From: Aquificaceae bacterium
GTDB taxonomy: Bacteria; Aquificota; Aquificia; Aquificales; Aquificaceae
Reading direction: 5' to 3'
DNA length: 14,194 nucleotides
Assembly (NCBI GenBank): GCA_015487835.1
Contig: WFOY01000213.1
Location: forward strand, 1-14,194
Shown here: piece after piece, positions 1,864 to 11,650 of the stretch
Layout: every line of letters begins with the position of its first letter
Numbering within the stretch: position 1 is the stretch's first letter
Translations under genes and position numbers: made by a program
The notes under the pieces: generated by a model
Seen by the model: only the letters and a program-made list of their open reading frames with translations
Told to the model about the DNA's origin: nothing
Database searches by the model: none

Positions 1864-3147
1864 TCACGTGGGTGAACCCTCGCAGCTATCACAGGGTTCC
1901 ACGGCCTTCATCCTGAGGATCTTCTCCACAAGAAACTCCTCAAAGCTTGGGTATATATTGCCCCTCTTAACCTTCCAGAGGAAGTACCTCTCGAAGGCGG
2001 TCTTAGCCCAGTGGACCCACCTTCCTTTCCTTGACTTTACCCAGATCCTCGGAGGGATCACAGGGTTGGCGAGGAAACCGATCCCCTCATCCCCCATGTC
2101 AGCTATGCAGAGGGCAGCTAAGGTGGGCGCGTACCTTTCCTTTAGGCCTTTTATGTCGGCCACTATGTTGAAAGCCGCAGCCCTGGCCATACCCTCTATC
2201 ATCTGCCCCGTCTTAGGGGTCCCCGTTGGGACAGGTGTCTGGTCTACCGGGGGTATGAAAGCAACCACACCGACACCGTATACGTTACCGTAGGAGGGAT
2301 TCTGGAAGCACTTGTTAACTATAACCATACCGTTCTTTGGGTGGGCTACCTTGCTACCTGCGGACAGGACCACCTCAGGCCCTGCGAACTTGGGCATCAG
2401 CATGGTGAACTTGGAGGGAAGGTCCCTTGTGTTGCCCTCCAGGTCCTCGTAGACTACCCTCTCCCTCTCCACAGCCTTCACCTTTACGTTCGTCACGTAC
2501 CTTATGTCCTTCTCAGCGAACAGGTCCTCCATCAACCTTCTGGATGTCCCTATACCCCCGAGTCCGAGGTGACCAAGGTAAGGTTCCGAGGTCACGTAAG
2601 TTATAGACACCCTCCTCCTGAGACCTCTTTTAACCAGCTCATGGTGAACCATGAGGGCGAACTCGTAAGCGGGCCCAAAGCAGCTCACCCCTGGGATCGC
2701 ACCTACGACCACGGGGCCAGGATCCCTACAGAGGGCCTCGAACCTATCCCTTGTGGCCGCGGCGTGTTCGGCAGTGCATATGGACGCCGAGTTCTCCTCC
2801 ATGCCCTCGGCTTCGAACACAAGTTTTGGACCGGTCGCTATCACCAGATAGTCGTACCCTATCTCCCTGCCTGAGGAGGTCCACACCTTGCAGAGGTCAG
2901 GGTCTATCCTCTCGGCCCTCTCGTTTATAAACTCTACGCCAGCCCTGGACAGAACCGGACCCAGGGGGACCGTTATGTCCTCGAACCTCCTCCATCCCAT
3001 AGCCAAGTGAGGGTAGGCAGGTGTGAACCCAAAGTACGGTCTGTCCGATATCAGGGTGATCCTGATGTCCTTGGAGATCTTTTTTAGATTATAGGCGGTG
3101 GCTAAACCCCCTATCCCTCCTCCGATTACGACCACATGTTTTGTCAT
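1864..3147 (-). CDS. sqr: Sulfide:quinone oxidoreductase, Aquifex-like (type I)
   Basis: Monotopic membrane flavoprotein that oxidises sulfide to polysulfide or sulfur and reduces the quinone pool. The protein is 427 residues. It opens with the FAD dinucleotide fold VVIGGGIGGLATAYNL (residues 6-21), with a second nucleotide-fold segment near 95-107 (YDYLVIATGPKLV). Cysteines fall at C124 (SICTAEHA), C156 (GVSCFGPAYEF) and C347 (LCIADMG). From memory these are the numbered catalytic and flavin-linking cysteines of the A. aeolicus enzyme. The quinone/FAD region VPTGTPKTGQMIE and the amphipathic C-terminal tail (about 375-412), thought to anchor it to the membrane, are present. The tail ends in CDSC. 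Start ATG 3147 follows GGAGGG at six bases. A TetR gene follows on the same strand and an oxidase operon diverges upstream, fitting sulfide-driven aerobic respiration. Confidence 0.96.
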   Translation of the reverse strand: MTKHVVVIGGGIGGLATAYNLKKISKDIRITLISDRPYFGFTPAYPHLAMGWRRFEDITVPLGPVLSRAGVEFINERAERIDPDLCKVWTSSGREIGYDYLVIATGPKLVFEAEGMEENSASICTAEHAAATRDRFEALCRDPGPVVVGAIPGVSCFGPAYEFALMVHHELVKRGLRRRVSITYVTSEPYLGHLGLGGIGTSRRLMEDLFAEKDIRYVTNVKVKAVERERVVYEDLEGNTRDLPSKFTMLMPKFAGPEVVLSAGSKVAHPKNGMVIVNKCFQNPSYGNVYGVGVVAFIPPVDQTPVPTGTPKTGQMIEGMARAAAFNIVADIKGLKERYAPTLAALCIADMGDEGIGFLANPVIPPRIWVKSRKGRWVHWAKTAFERYFLWKVKRGNIYPSFEEFLVEKILRMKAVEPCDSCEGSPT

Positions 3148-8134: not shown

Positions 8135-9280
8135 ATGCCAAGGTACGACGTGGTCGTGGTCGGGGGAGGTCCTGCCGGTGCAACGTCCGCCAGGTTGCTC
8201 GCAGAGGCAGGTGTCAGGGTCCTCCTGCTGGAGAAGAAGAGGATCCCCCGCTTTAAACTCTGTGCCGGGTGCCTCTCCGCCAGGATAGAGGGACTCCTCC
8301 CCGAGTGTTGGAGACGTCTTGTGTTGAACGATATAAAGGGAGGGCTTTTAGGGTTCAGAGGTGAGAACTACCTAAGTGTTACCTCCGAAAGACCGGTGGC
8401 CTATATAGTCGACAGATCCGACTTTGACTCTTTCCTGGTTGAGGTGGCTGTGTCCTCAGGATCGGAACTCTGGGATGGGACGGAGTTTATAGACTTTGAG
8501 GAGGGATTTCCGCTGAAGGTCAGGACATCAAGGGGAACAGTCCAAACAGACTTTCTCATAGGTGCGGATGGCTTCTACACCAGAGTGGGGAAGCTCCTCG
8601 GCTACCGGAAGAGAAAGTTCTTCAGGTCCATCGAGTTCTGGACAGAGGGGACACTTGAGGACAGGGTCGTCATAGACATAGGTCTTGTGAGGAGAGGCTA
8701 CGGCTGGGTTTTCCCTAAGGGGGACAGATCGAGCGTTGGGATCGCCTCCTACGGTAGTGAGAACCTGATCGATGTCCTGAAGTCCTATGCGTCCGCAACC
8801 CCTTACCTGAACGGAAAGGAGGTCAAAGGAACCCTTGGCTGGATGATACCCTTCGCGGAGAGGGAGGAGGACCTGCATCTGGGGAAGGGCAGGGTGGCCC
8901 TGGTGGGTGACGCGGCCAACATGGTGGATCCCCTTCTCGGTGAGGGCATATACTACGGTGTCCTCGGGGGGAAGATCCTTGCGGAGGCCTTTATCGAGGA
9001 TCCTGCGAGGGTGGTGGATCTGTACAGAAAAAAGGTTAACGACATCATCACGCCCGAACTCGCACACGCTGCAAAGATAGCCCGGCTTGCCTACCGCTTC
9101 CAGAGAGTAGCCTTTAGGATGGGAGATAGGGCCATCCTCGGATTTCTGGGTCTTCTTGAGGGGAGGACTACATATCAAAACTTATATAAAAAAGGTTTAG
9201 TGGACTTTCTGATCTCTCTCTTGAATTTTGAAAATTTTTTGCATATAATAATAGATAAAATCTTAAGGAGGAGGTGGTAG
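8135..9280 (+). CDS. Geranylgeranyl reductase family FAD-dependent oxidoreductase
   Basis: Flavoprotein of the family that saturates double bonds in prenyl chains (archaeal lipids, chlorophyll phytol, some quinones). The protein is 381 residues. It has the FAD-binding GGGPAG (10-15), a CAGC cysteine pair (C43, C46) in the place of the conserved family cysteine, the YGWVFP motif (189-194) matching the family's YxWxFP substrate-site signature, and GDAANMVDPLLGEGI (258-272) contacting FAD. The last 40 residues are hydrophobic and basic (ending ILRRRW) and may contact the membrane. The substrate in a non-photosynthetic bacterium is unknown; a quinone side chain or a polyprenyl carrier are candidates. 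The start ATG 8135 fits the family N-terminus and is 18 bases from the divergent uppP start. Its AT-rich 3' end contains a promoter for the next gene, which starts two bases after its stop. Confidence 0.85.
   Translation: MPRYDVVVVGGGPAGATSARLLAEAGVRVLLLEKKRIPRFKLCAGCLSARIEGLLPECWRRLVLNDIKGGLLGFRGENYLSVTSERPVAYIVDRSDFDSFLVEVAVSSGSELWDGTEFIDFEEGFPLKVRTSRGTVQTDFLIGADGFYTRVGKLLGYRKRKFFRSIEFWTEGTLEDRVVIDIGLVRRGYGWVFPKGDRSSVGIASYGSENLIDVLKSYASATPYLNGKEVKGTLGWMIPFAEREEDLHLGKGRVALVGDAANMVDPLLGEGIYYGVLGGKILAEAFIEDPARVVDLYRKKVNDIITPELAHAAKIARLAYRFQRVAFRMGDRAILGFLGLLEGRTTYQNLYKKGLVDFLISLLNFENFLHIIIDKILRRRW
9221..9249 (+). promoter_or_regulatory. Internal promoter for the rubrerythrin cassette
   Basis: TTGAAT (9221-9226) and TATAAT (9244-9249) are separated by exactly 17 bases and lie within the 3' end of the upstream flavoprotein gene. 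The predicted start near 9256 gives a leader of about 27 bases with a strong AAGGAGGAGGTG ribosome site (9265-9276) before the ATG at 9283. The local sequence is much more AT-rich than its surroundings. Confidence 0.65.
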
Positions 9281-9282
9281 TT

Positions 9283-9720
9283 ATGAGCAAGAGCCTGCAG
9301 GGAACGAAGACCCTTGAGAACTTGAAGGCAGCCTTTGCGGGAGAGTCTCAGGCCAACAGAAGGTACCTCTACTTTGCCAGAGAGGCTGACATACAGGGCT
9401 ATCCCGATATAGCCAACATCTTCAGGGAGACCGCCGAGGGTGAGACAGGACACGCCTTCGGACACCTGGACATGATGAGGAAGTACGGAGGCGTTGACCC
9501 CGCTACTGAGAAGACCATAAACTCCCTCGAGGAGATGCTCGAGTCCGCCATAGCTGGAGAGACTTATGAGTACACAGAGATGTACCCTGGTTTCGCCAAG
9601 GTTGCCAGGGAGGAAGGTTTTGACGAGATAGCGGAGTGGTTCGAGACCCTGGCAAGAGCTGAGAAGTCCCACGCCGGAAGGTTCCAAAAGGCCCTCGACC
9701 AGTACAAGGCTTCCGCTTAA
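9283..9720 (+). CDS. Rubrerythrin without rubredoxin domain (sulerythrin-like)
   Basis: Ferritin-like diiron protein expected to reduce hydrogen peroxide in the cytoplasm. The protein is 145 residues against about 190 for classical rubrerythrin. It ends after the four-helix bundle, has no rubredoxin domain and no cysteine at all. All likely iron ligands are present: E21 (GESQANRRY), E54 and H57 (EGETGH), E93 and E96 (GETYEY), E127 and H130 (AEKSH), matching the classical rubrerythrin set. This shape resembles sulerythrin of Sulfolobus. ATG 9283 follows AAGGAGGAGGTG; an in-frame GTG at 9274 lies inside that ribosome site. It heads a cassette with an Fe-S protein and DUF3501 and probably has its own promoter. 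Lacking rubredoxin, it needs an external electron donor, plausibly the next gene's product. Confidence 0.92.
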
Positions 9721-9729
9721 CGTGCTCCC

Positions 9730-9746
9730 GGGGCTTCTCTGGCCCC
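9730..9746 (+). other. Hairpin between the rubrerythrin and Fe-S protein genes
   Basis: GGGGC-TTCTCTG-GCCCC in the 50-base gap after the rubrerythrin stop, followed by ATTCTT rather than a T-run. It closely resembles the hairpin after coxA (shared TCTGGCCCC side). It may be a partial terminator or a 3' stabiliser that raises rubrerythrin over the downstream products. Confidence 0.45.
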
Positions 9747-9770
9747 ATTCTTCAAACTTAGGAGAGGGTT

Positions 9771-11063
9771 ATGTACGAATCGAGTATAGGTGGTGTAAAA
9801 GAGTTTAACTTTGATATCAAGGACCCTAACTTCTACGACGAGGAGGCCATCTGGGAGGAGGCGAGGAGGGTCTTCTCCAAGTGCAAAGACTGTAGGATGT
9901 GTATCGGCTTCTGTCCTTCCTTCCCAACCCTCTTCGACGCGGTGGACAGGAACGATGACGACGTAAGCAAACTCTCGAAGGAGGAACTCGCAAAGCCCCT
10001 CGAACTATGCTTCCACTGCAAGCAGTGCTACTTTAGATGCCCCTACACCCCTCCCCACGAGTGGAGGATAGACTTCCCTCACCTATCACTCCGCTACAAG
10101 GCTTGGAAGTTCAAGAAAAAAGGTGCAGGACTCGTTCAAAGGCTCATGGTGAATACGGATCTGAACGGTAAACTGAACGCGGGCCACACAGCCCACCTCG
10201 TTAACACGTTCCTGAATGCCAGACCCGTCAGGGTGATCTTGGAAAATCTCGTGGGCATAGACAGGAGGGCCAAACTCCCTCCCTTCAACACCCAGACTTT
10301 CAGGGACTGGTTCTCAAAGAACAGAGGAAACACAAGCGGTGAGAACGGCAAGGTAGCCCTCTTTCACACATGCCTTATAAACTACAACTACCTGTCTAAA
10401 GGGATAGCCCTCGTAAGGGTCCTTGAGAAGAACGGTGTTCATATCGAACTCCCGGATCAGGAGTGCTGCGGCATACCCTACTTTGACATAGGGGATCTTG
10501 AAACTGCTCAGAGGAAGGCGAGGAGGAACGTTGAAAAACTGAAACCTTACCTCGACAGAGGTTACGACATCATCGTCCCCATACCCACCTGTGCCCTCCA
10601 GCTTAAGTACGAGTACCCCCTTCTCCTACCCGACGATCCGGACGTTAAGAGGATCTCGGAGAGGGTTTACGACGTCCACGAGTATCTCTGGAAGCTGAAC
10701 GAGGAGGGCAGGCTGAACAAAGACTTCAAGGTCTCCATGGGGAGGATAGCCTACCACATACCCTGCCACCTGAAGTCCCTCAACGTCGGTTACAAAGGCG
10801 TCGCCCTCCTAAGACTCATACCCGACACGAAGGTTCGTATAGTGGACAGGTGCTCCGGACACGATGGAACCTTTGGCGTCAGGAAGGAGACCTTCGACAT
10901 GGCCTACAAGGTAGGTTCCAGGCTCTTTGAGGATCTAAAGGCCCAGGAGTCCGACATCATAGTCTCTGAGTGTCCCCTCGCCAGCAACATGATAAGCCTT
11001 GGAACGGGCAAGACACCCCTCCACCCGATAGAGGTCCTCTACAAGGCTTACGGAGGTGAGTGA
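9771..11063 (+). CDS. GlpC/HdrD-type iron-sulfur protein with two CCG domains
   Basis: Cytoplasmic or membrane-peripheral electron carrier, 430 residues. The N-terminal part has two 4Fe-4S motifs of the form CxxCxxCxxxCP: C38, C41, C44, C48 and C80, C83, C86, C90. Two cysteine-rich CCG-type domains follow: C201 with C232-C233 (ECCGIPYFDIGD) and C274, then C332 (IPCHLKS), C361 (RCSGHDGTFG) and C401 (ECPLASN). The second domain has CSG in place of CCG, as I recall for GlpC-like proteins. Such domains bind cubane or noncubane clusters in heterodisulfide reductase and anaerobic glycerol-3-phosphate dehydrogenase. Here no HdrABC or GlpAB partner is present. Instead it lies between rubrerythrin and DUF3501, so I infer electron transfer to the diiron protein. 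GGAG precedes the ATG by six bases. Its stop overlaps the next start (TGATG). Confidence 0.88.
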   Translation: MYESSIGGVKEFNFDIKDPNFYDEEAIWEEARRVFSKCKDCRMCIGFCPSFPTLFDAVDRNDDDVSKLSKEELAKPLELCFHCKQCYFRCPYTPPHEWRIDFPHLSLRYKAWKFKKKGAGLVQRLMVNTDLNGKLNAGHTAHLVNTFLNARPVRVILENLVGIDRRAKLPPFNTQTFRDWFSKNRGNTSGENGKVALFHTCLINYNYLSKGIALVRVLEKNGVHIELPDQECCGIPYFDIGDLETAQRKARRNVEKLKPYLDRGYDIIVPIPTCALQLKYEYPLLLPDDPDVKRISERVYDVHEYLWKLNEEGRLNKDFKVSMGRIAYHIPCHLKSLNVGYKGVALLRLIPDTKVRIVDRCSGHDGTFGVRKETFDMAYKVGSRLFEDLKAQESDIIVSECPLASNMISLGTGKTPLHPIEVLYKAYGGE

Positions 11064-11650
11064 TGAGAAAGGTTACCATGTCCGACATCCTTAACCTCTA
11101 CGAGTACGAAAAGGTGAGACCTGAGAAGGTTAAGTACATAACCCAGCTAAAGAAGAAGAGGAGGGTCCACGCAGGGGACAAGGTGACCTTCGTCTTTGAG
11201 AACTTCGACACCGTCTGGTTCCAGATCCAGGAGATGATAAGGGCCGAGAGGATGGTGGACGAGAAGGACATCCAGTTCGAGATAGACACCTACAACGAAC
11301 TGATACCTGAGAAGAACCAACTCTCAGCCACCATGTTCATAGAGATACCCGATGCCGAGGAGAGGAGGAAGATCCTCCCTAAGTTGATAGGGATACATGA
11401 CACGGTCTACCTCCATATAGGTAACAAGCACACGATCAAGGCTGTGGCCGATGAAAAGAGCCAGATGGACTACGAGGAGGGTAAGGCCTCCGTAGTTCAC
11501 TTCTTGAAGTGGAACCTCACGCCTGAGCAGGTGGAGGACTTCAAGAGAGAACCCGTCAGGATAGAGATAAACCACGAGAACTACAAAGCCCTTGTGCAGA
11601 TACCACCCGAGGTGAAGGAGGAGCTGATAAAGGACCTGGAGAGCGATTAA
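11063..11650 (+). CDS. DUF3501 family protein
   Basis: Protein of 195 residues that I recognise as DUF3501; no biochemical function is known to me. Recognisable stretches are the N-terminal LYEYEKVRPE followed by a basic KKKRRVHAGD patch, then FENFDTVWFQIQEMIRAER (45-63), ELIPEKNQLSATMFIEIPD (79-97) and HDTVYLHIG (112-120). It has no cysteine, no membrane segment and no signal peptide. It is acidic-basic mixed and probably soluble, so it is unlikely to hold an Fe-S cluster itself. A role as partner, assembly factor or regulator of the two proteins before it is possible but unproven. ATG 11063 overlaps the Fe-S gene stop and has GGAGG six bases before it; the in-frame GTG at 11060 is less likely. 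The TGATG coupling makes co-translation with the Fe-S protein likely. Confidence 0.85.
   Translation: MRKVTMSDILNLYEYEKVRPEKVKYITQLKKKRRVHAGDKVTFVFENFDTVWFQIQEMIRAERMVDEKDIQFEIDTYNELIPEKNQLSATMFIEIPDAEERRKILPKLIGIHDTVYLHIGNKHTIKAVADEKSQMDYEEGKASVVHFLKWNLTPEQVEDFKREPVRIEINHENYKALVQIPPEVKEELIKDLESD

Follow-up and report, generated by a model that had tools for sequence, protein, structure and literature searches.

Described Relatives of the Cassette

Cardenas, Quatrini, and Holmes (2016) described a system consisting of exactly an "aerobic-type" rubrerythrin (RBR), an Fe-S protein that they named RFO, and a DUF3501 protein (PMC5114695). The cassette analyzed here, at positions 9283-11650 of contig WFOY01000213.1 from an Aquificaceae bacterium (14,194 nucleotides; this whole stretch is referred to as the window), is an instance of that system and as such already known. 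Triple co-occurrence was reported in 185 of 4461 genomes, with RFO-DUF3501 fusions in Nitrosomonas, the three-gene form in Hydrogenobaculum (Aquificae), and further occurrences in archaea (PMC5114695). The trio has also been noted in eukaryotes, with a predicted mitochondrial location (PMC7050145), and in a hot-spring metagenome, and it lies beside OxyR in Sideroxydans (PMC7852563). RFO was proposed to make up for the missing rubredoxin domain, and the authors asked by what route rubrerythrin receives its electrons in Thermoproteales, where DUF3501 is present and RFO is not (PMC5114695).

The ferriperoxin (Fpx) of Hydrogenobacter thermophilus was assigned to the same aerobic-type rubrerythrin group (PMC5114695). 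Supplied with NADPH and FNR, it reduces organic hydroperoxides as well as H2O2; it reacts very slowly with O2 and has very low superoxide dismutase (SOD) activity. An fpx disruptant did not grow at 10% O2, and low concentrations of reactive oxygen species (ROS) were bactericidal or inhibitory to it. That work used FNR, and RFO and DUF3501 are absent from its accessible account (PMC3317640). In Sulfolobus solfataricus, a rubrerythrin belongs to a gene cluster that includes a glpC-like gene; transcripts of the cluster rose with H2O2, while at the protein level one rubrerythrin spot went up and two went down (PMC2739297).

Conservation and Linkage of the Three Genes

The window derives from a draft genome of 1.33 Mb and 81% completeness. 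Three open reading frames (ORFs) on its + strand form one cassette:

9283-9720, + strand: rbr, 145 aa; single-domain aerobic-type rubrerythrin of the ferriperoxin/sulerythrin type (Pfam Rubrerythrin, 1.4e-32)
9771-11063, + strand: rfo, 430 aa; GlpC/HdrD/EtfD-like Fe-S protein (Pfam CCG, 5.7e-21, two stretches)
11063-11650, + strand: DUF3501 gene (PF12007), 195 aa (Pfam 1.1e-65, 221.7 bits against a cut-off of 25)
11061-11065, + strand: TGATG overlap; rfo stop TGA at 11061-11063 and DUF3501 start ATG at 11063-11065, with one base in common

The window thus combines a single-domain rubrerythrin nearest to sulerythrin and ferriperoxin with a linked RFO, which is GlpC-like but of a separate family, and a linked DUF3501. 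An earlier sequence-only reading had reported three same-strand genes with a TGATG overlap and a ribosome site, and the coordinates that we re-derived agree; the overlap suggests translational coupling of rfo and DUF3501. That reading was partly supported overall. Its statement that the trio recurs in other bacteria was right, as both the published genome counts and our own loci across phyla show. Its description of the system as undescribed does not hold, since the trio, its co-occurrence, the fusion, and the same donor hypothesis are already in PMC5114695. The nearest genus-named DUF3501 relatives, among the 120 matches listed, are Hydrogenivirga proteins of 83-84% identity.

Across 136 Aquificota genomes, DUF3501 was found in 43, RFO in 43, and a close-type rubrerythrin in 42; all three were present in 41, only some in 4, and none in 91. 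The genomes with partial sets (G008, G041, G047, and G054) are drafts of 65-90% completeness. Close-type rubrerythrins were those of 79% identity or more, so that 11 genomes with matches of 31-45% were excluded as carrying other types, and two DUF3501 fragments were counted as present (that of G045 lies at a contig end, and that of G037 contains a stop and scores below the cut-off). This co-occurrence is far above chance (Fisher 7e-30 to 2e-34 over the 136 genomes, kinship ignored). The three genes were linked in 8 of 11 g1 genomes, being split across contigs in the other 3, and in all 5 g4 genomes. RBR and DUF3501 were linked with RFO elsewhere in 11 of 11 genomes of g3, g8, and g9, and RBR and RFO with DUF3501 elsewhere in 14 of 14 genomes of g6 and g11. 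Co-occurrence that holds across such differing gene orders supports the view that the trio is one functional unit, though these genomes are all of one family and the number of independent events is smaller than the number of genomes.

Further support comes from a set of 80 named loci, drawn from at least 532 confirmed DUF3501 loci and sharing some Aquificota contigs with the phylum scan. These loci come from Aquificota, Actinomycetota, Proteobacteria, Chloroflexota, Nitrospira, and others. The order RBR-RFO-DUF3501 on a single strand was seen in 51, a count that takes in L095, where only a 47-residue RFO fragment is present, and L078 and L086, in which RFO is split across two frames. Another 14 had RBR-DUF3501 without a local RFO, 10 had RFO-DUF3501 on contigs that end upstream, and DUF3501 stood alone in 3 loci with a contig end upstream and in 2 others. 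The L095 fragment (1335-1475) lies between rbr and DUF3501 and reflects either a true genomic deletion or one introduced during assembly. When the own genomes of the 19 loci without a local RFO were searched, a full-length RFO was found elsewhere in 5 of 6 Aquificota and partial RFOs in both Proteobacteria. The neighborhood and co-occurrence check called for by the sequence-only reading was thus run, and a DUF3501 mostly without its two companions was not what it showed.

We also surveyed a second class of 148 genomes around an Acidimicrobiales genome, unrelated to Aquificota. All three genes were present in 32 of these, RBR and DUF3501 only in 15, RBR and/or RFO without DUF3501 in 5, and none in 96; DUF3501 without RBR occurred in 0 of 47 genomes. 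The RFO threshold was 200 bits, with G188 (220 bits, a 618-aa frame, no rubrerythrin or DUF3501) excluded by hand, and the rubrerythrin threshold of 73% identity excludes G162 (57%), G292 (62%), and G181 (41%). Three of the five DUF3501-less cases end at a contig edge. At L158 (G193), RBR and RFO overlap and DUF3501 was found neither downstream nor in the genome; likewise, no DUF3501 accompanies the divergent RBR and RFO of L157 (G181) and L156 (G162, under the count threshold). Because RBR with DUF3501 but no RFO and RBR with RFO but no DUF3501 both occur, rubrerythrin is the hub of the system, and each accessory can be lost alone.

Rubrerythrin and Fe-S Protein Features

The window rubrerythrin has no cysteine and no rubredoxin domain, and it has a full diiron ligand set, all as the sequence-only reading had stated. 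We take this set, from known rubrerythrin structures, to be E21, E54, H57, E93, E96, E127, and H130. All 85 rubrerythrin rows have the same residue at each of these positions. Some cysteine occurs in 27 of the 85, and CxxC in none of them, nor in the remaining downstream part of their ORFs. Sulerythrin chains in PDB match the window rubrerythrin at E about 1e-64. Peroxidase activity of the module would follow by analogy with ferriperoxin, for which it was reported with FNR only. A role in peroxide defense, put forward by the sequence-only reading alongside O2 defense, is very probable for the cassette.

RFO has 15 cysteines, of which 8 belong to two ferredoxin motifs, 4 to CCG domain 1, and 3 to CCG domain 2:

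9882-9914, + strand: rfo ferredoxin motif 1, C38-x2-C41-x2-C44-x3-C48; putative [4Fe-4S]
10008-10040, + strand: rfo ferredoxin motif 2, C80-x2-C83-x2-C86-x3-C90; putative [4Fe-4S]
10353-10607, + strand: rfo CCG domain 1 (CCG1), C201, C232, C233, and C274; 4 Cys, as in Escherichia coli GlpC
10746-10991, + strand: rfo CCG domain 2 (CCG2), degenerate, C332, C361-S-G, and C401; 2 of 5 canonical Cys replaced (S362, A404)

Fer4 Pfam models match RFO weakly (2e-5 to 6e-4, below their cut-offs). The two 4Fe-4S motifs and the first CCG domain noted earlier are present, while what had been taken for a second CCG-type domain reads CSG and has no CxxC. We compared 69 RFO rows, including near-identical ones and a few repeated contigs, with E. 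coli GlpC. The 8 ferredoxin cysteines are kept wherever the rows reach them (64-69 of 69 rows, the rest being gaps), and the 4 CCG1 cysteines in all 69. CCG2 retains 3 of its 5 ligand cysteines in all 69 rows. At the second position of CC, 68 rows carry Ser and 1 carries Ala; at the last position of CxxC, Ala is found in 65 rows, Gly in 3, and Ser in 1. The RFO of L158 keeps all three remaining CCG2 cysteines. Among the divergent RFOs of loci without DUF3501, L157 has 1 of the three and L156 has 0, with ferredoxin and CCG1 cysteines intact in both. These eroded forms (L156:1971-3218 and L157:2360-3676) adjoin divergent rubrerythrins.

Other CCG proteins give a useful contrast. Two further types of CCG protein, compared in five related genomes, have C-C-G and CxxC intact in both of their domains (5 of 5), for example with ECPLC where RFO has ECPLA. 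A third type in these genomes has one CCG motif only, and a further frame, present in three of the five, lay outside the comparison. We did not find the CCG2 degeneration of RFO mentioned in the literature searched, and the accessible account of the published system is likewise silent on it (PMC5114695); it is a refinement beyond that system.

A PDB sequence search with RFO returned nothing at E 0.001. The predicted RFO fold, taken from a natural Nitrosomonas fusion (mean predicted local distance difference test score 88), matches LutA, mycobacterial EtfD, and HdrB, the match to EtfD spanning its residues 253-748. EtfD passes electrons from ETF to menaquinone; it has Thr in place of one CC cysteine, and this substitution is associated with a linear [3Fe-4S] cluster (PMC13083937). 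Given this precedent, unusual clusters are possible in RFO as well. Judging from its sequence, RFO is probably soluble.

DUF3501 Features

The window DUF3501 is free of cysteine, as had been noted, and has a mixed helix/strand fold. A homologue from Burkholderia pseudomallei has been solved (PDB 3fjv, 34% identity) and is titled a protein of unknown function. Polar residues such as Q54, Q56, E57, E62, and E73 are invariant over 54 rows. Natural RFO-DUF3501 fusions account for 106 of 120 listed matches, and a model of the Nitrosomonas fusion is confident over most of each domain (predicted template modeling score, pTM, 0.68). A phage search for DUF3501 gave no match, and a plasmid search gave 4 Burkholderia replicons. 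We found no biochemical study of RFO or DUF3501 in the texts of the papers searched.

Proposed Electron Route and Alternatives

None of the 64 family genomes gave a rubredoxin (PF00301) match, against 7 of 14 control genomes, so that a rubredoxin donor is unlikely in this family. The idea that the Fe-S protein stands in for rubredoxin, raised by the sequence-only reading in agreement with the published proposal, fits this absence. The explanation that we favor as a whole, at a probability of roughly 65%, is an aerobic-type rubrerythrin system in which RFO reduces rubrerythrin in place of rubredoxin and DUF3501 is an accessory. By homology with the Hydrogenobacter protein, the diiron rubrerythrin would reduce H2O2 and organic hydroperoxides. 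RFO would act as a soluble Fe-S wire in which two cubane [4Fe-4S] clusters feed a CCG1 cluster, and the latter would reduce rubrerythrin directly. Since CCG2 is degenerate and the ferredoxin and CCG1 cysteines are kept, electrons probably run from the ferredoxin clusters through CCG1 to rubrerythrin. On the simplest reading of the cysteine pattern, CCG2 would lie off the electron path and CCG1 would be the exit cluster. CCG2 appears to have lost ligands that an Hdr-type non-cubane cluster requires and is more likely a structural or docking surface than a thiol-reducing site. Thiols, named earlier as one possible electron source, are accordingly weakened as candidates, RFO having neither the five-Cys CCG2 motif nor a full CxxC in domain 1. 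The probable source of electrons for RFO is a flavoprotein or the quinol pool, by comparison with its relatives GlpC, LutA, and EtfD. DUF3501, whose constant partner is rubrerythrin, probably docks it to its donor or assembles the diiron enzyme.

A more specific version can be offered tentatively. RFO might represent a distinct CCG class, a soluble wire that has discarded the Hdr-type cluster of CCG2 and whose CCG1 cluster, special and perhaps linear or open, passes electrons straight to a diiron peroxidase, with DUF3501 as a clamp holding rubrerythrin to RFO or to alternative donors. If so, it would be, to our knowledge, the first CCG protein with a diiron enzyme as terminal acceptor rather than a quinone, thiol, or flavin.

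Several observations weigh against RFO as the donor and DUF3501 as a fixed accessory. Ferriperoxin is reduced in vitro by FNR/NADPH without RFO or DUF3501 (PMC3317640). RFO is missing in 15 of 47 DUF3501 genomes of the second class, and none of 11 RBR+DUF3501 genomes outside Aquificota and Proteobacteria (completeness not stated) has a strong RFO match; 3 of them give weak hits of 76-130 bits, probably to other CCG proteins. Because some RBR+DUF3501 lineages thus have no RFO, another donor must exist and RFO is not the only route. Nor is DUF3501 indispensable, being missing beside RBR-RFO in L158 and in the divergent L156 and L157. The neighbors of 7 lone RFO loci in Aquificota include no consistent donor, and the pTM of the fusion model leaves the orientation of RFO to DUF3501 unfixed.

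One alternative is that FNR/NADPH, or ferredoxin, is the physiological donor and that RFO does something else, such as draining electrons to or from the respiratory chain or sensing redox state. Hydrogenobacter ferriperoxin does work as a peroxidase when given NADPH and FNR and no other protein (PMC3317640), and lineages without RFO exist. Yet RFO tracks rubrerythrin in Aquificota, where both occur in 41 of 43 RFO genomes and 41 of 42 rubrerythrin genomes, and it lies between rbr and DUF3501 in most named loci, as counted above. FNR is, moreover, promiscuous in such assays, and we consider this alternative unlikely. For DUF3501, a role as maturation factor or metal chaperone for the diiron site, instead of docking adaptor, would suit its presence with rubrerythrin even without RFO (the same 15 of 47 second-class genomes), its freedom from cysteine in the window, and its invariant polar residues. 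Such a role is possible but doubtful, given that DUF3501 is fused to RFO in Nitrosomonas, that no DUF3501-rubrerythrin fusion was seen in the loci checked, and that recombinant ferriperoxin from E. coli, apparently a holoprotein, was made without DUF3501 (PMC3317640).

Two further alternatives concern the identity of the proteins. The Pfam Ferritin model also matches the rubrerythrin, which might then be mainly a ferroxidase, iron store, or O2 reductase; this is very improbable, as ferriperoxin is an active peroxidase that reacts with O2 very slowly and has very little SOD activity, and its disruptant is ROS-sensitive (PMC3317640). The Fe-S protein could be an ordinary GlpC (anaerobic glycerol-3-phosphate dehydrogenase subunit C) beside rubrerythrin by chance: it scores 277.8 against the NCBIfam GlpC model, whose cut-off is 278, and its homologues are called GlpC in some sources. 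We regard this as hardly credible, as two GlpC cysteines are missing in all 69 RFO rows and the order and co-occurrence of RFO with rbr are conserved. GlpB, moreover, exceeded its cut-off in 0 of the 64 family genomes (2 of 14 controls; GlpA was not searched for), with sub-cut-off, mostly short N-terminal, matches in 57 of the 64, and RFO is therefore probably not a GlpC acting with GlpB.

Promoter, Regulation, and Neighboring Genes

Two candidate expression signals lie upstream of rbr:

9265-9275, + strand: rbr Shine-Dalgarno AAGGAGGAGGT, with a similar GGAGG in relatives
9221-9249, + strand: putative cassette promoter, sigma-70-like (TTGAAT, 17-base spacer, TATAAT), within the 3' end of the upstream gene

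The dedicated promoter suggested by the sequence-only reading fared unevenly. Taken alone, the sigma-70-like site is no more frequent than chance would give (2 sites, with 1.7 expected from shuffled sequence). Its -10 block GCATATAATA, however, precedes rbr in 13 of the 15 distinct relatives for which upstream sequence exists and is weaker in the other two, L147 and L031 (L155 has no upstream sequence, and L047 duplicates L148). Of the 13, four come from other genera and do not have the upstream gene seen in the window; in most own-genus loci the block lies within coding sequence, which could conserve it as well.

Neighbor counts from ORF clustering are lower bounds, as the clustering missed many trio genes. 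In at least 11 of the 80 named loci, mostly actinobacterial, rbr is preceded by a Fur-family ORF at a distance of no more than about 120 bp (L058, L061, L068, L071, L076, L097, L099, L109, L112, L121, and L124; confirmed by Pfam for 2 of the 11, L061 and L112). PerR-like control of rbr is plausible, and these neighbors, with the OxyR beside the trio in Sideroxydans and the response to H2O2 in Sulfolobus, support a peroxide role.

The geranylgeranyl-reductase-family flavoprotein upstream (8135-9280), whose 3' end holds the putative rbr promoter, was considered as an electron input and rejected. It adjoins rbr in 8 of 9 same-genus loci (not L149) and in 0 of 6 other-genus loci with upstream sequence, and so is not a constant part of the system. 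The neighbors of 5 lone DUF3501 loci in Aquificota likewise include no consistent donor. In one Aquificota genus, a lone RFO (L170:4390-6294) has a peroxiredoxin-like ORF directly upstream, and another (L165:3605-5669) has a divergent glutaredoxin/PDO-like CDTC ORF, both read from the ORF start; such neighbors were not seen at other lone RFO loci.

Separately, a GlpD/GlpO-like flavin adenine dinucleotide (FAD) enzyme is transcribed away from the rubrerythrin genes in at least 12 of the 80 named loci (L058, L061, L064, L069, L087, L098, L100, L102, L109, L110, L113, and L121; one checked by Pfam). Some loci add an FAD-linked oxidase (at least 9 of 80, one being Hydrogenobacter L048) or an FGGY kinase (at least 9 of 80), one of each checked by Pfam. 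The GlpD/GlpO-like neighbor is possibly an H2O2 source beside its scavenger. Elsewhere in the window, a sulfide:quinone-reductase-like flavoprotein below family cut-offs (1864-3147, - strand) overlaps a TetR-family regulator gene (1266-1892, - strand).

Comparison With Known Systems

The trio is widespread, so its electron path and the role of DUF3501 matter. The hub position of rubrerythrin, the separate loss of accessories, and the decay of CCG2 against the retention of CCG1 predict which cluster does the reducing and which lineages need another donor. They also come with a warning for annotation: RFO falls just 0.2 bits under the GlpC model, and some RFO-DUF3501 proteins have been named GlpC. 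Some fusions among P0122-P0227 are labeled glycerol-3-phosphate dehydrogenase subunit C in source databases, a likely mis-annotation.

Classical two-domain rubrerythrins carry a C-terminal rubredoxin [Fe(SCys)4] domain, whereas the cysteine-free window protein has none and resembles ferriperoxin and the sulerythrin of Sulfolobus tokodaii (PDB 1j30 and others), which are single-domain. E. coli GlpC has a five-Cys CCG domain 2 (C...CC...CxxC), where RFO has CSG and C..A. HdrD and HdrB, which carry out thiol/disulfide catalysis at non-cubane clusters, have the complete motif, and RFO has 4 of its 5 Cys in domain 1 and 3 of 5 in domain 2. Hdr reduces disulfides. Within the CCG family of GlpC, HdrD, LutA, and EtfD, the RFO cassette differs in having no membrane or flavin partner; EtfD itself joins a membrane region to a CCG wire with a linear [3Fe-4S] cluster, and its likeness to RFO is a fold match over the EtfD residues given above. 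With the aerobic-type rubrerythrin system, as far as its published account is accessible, the window shares the three families, their arrangement, the phylum, and the proposed role of RFO, and no essential difference separates the two.

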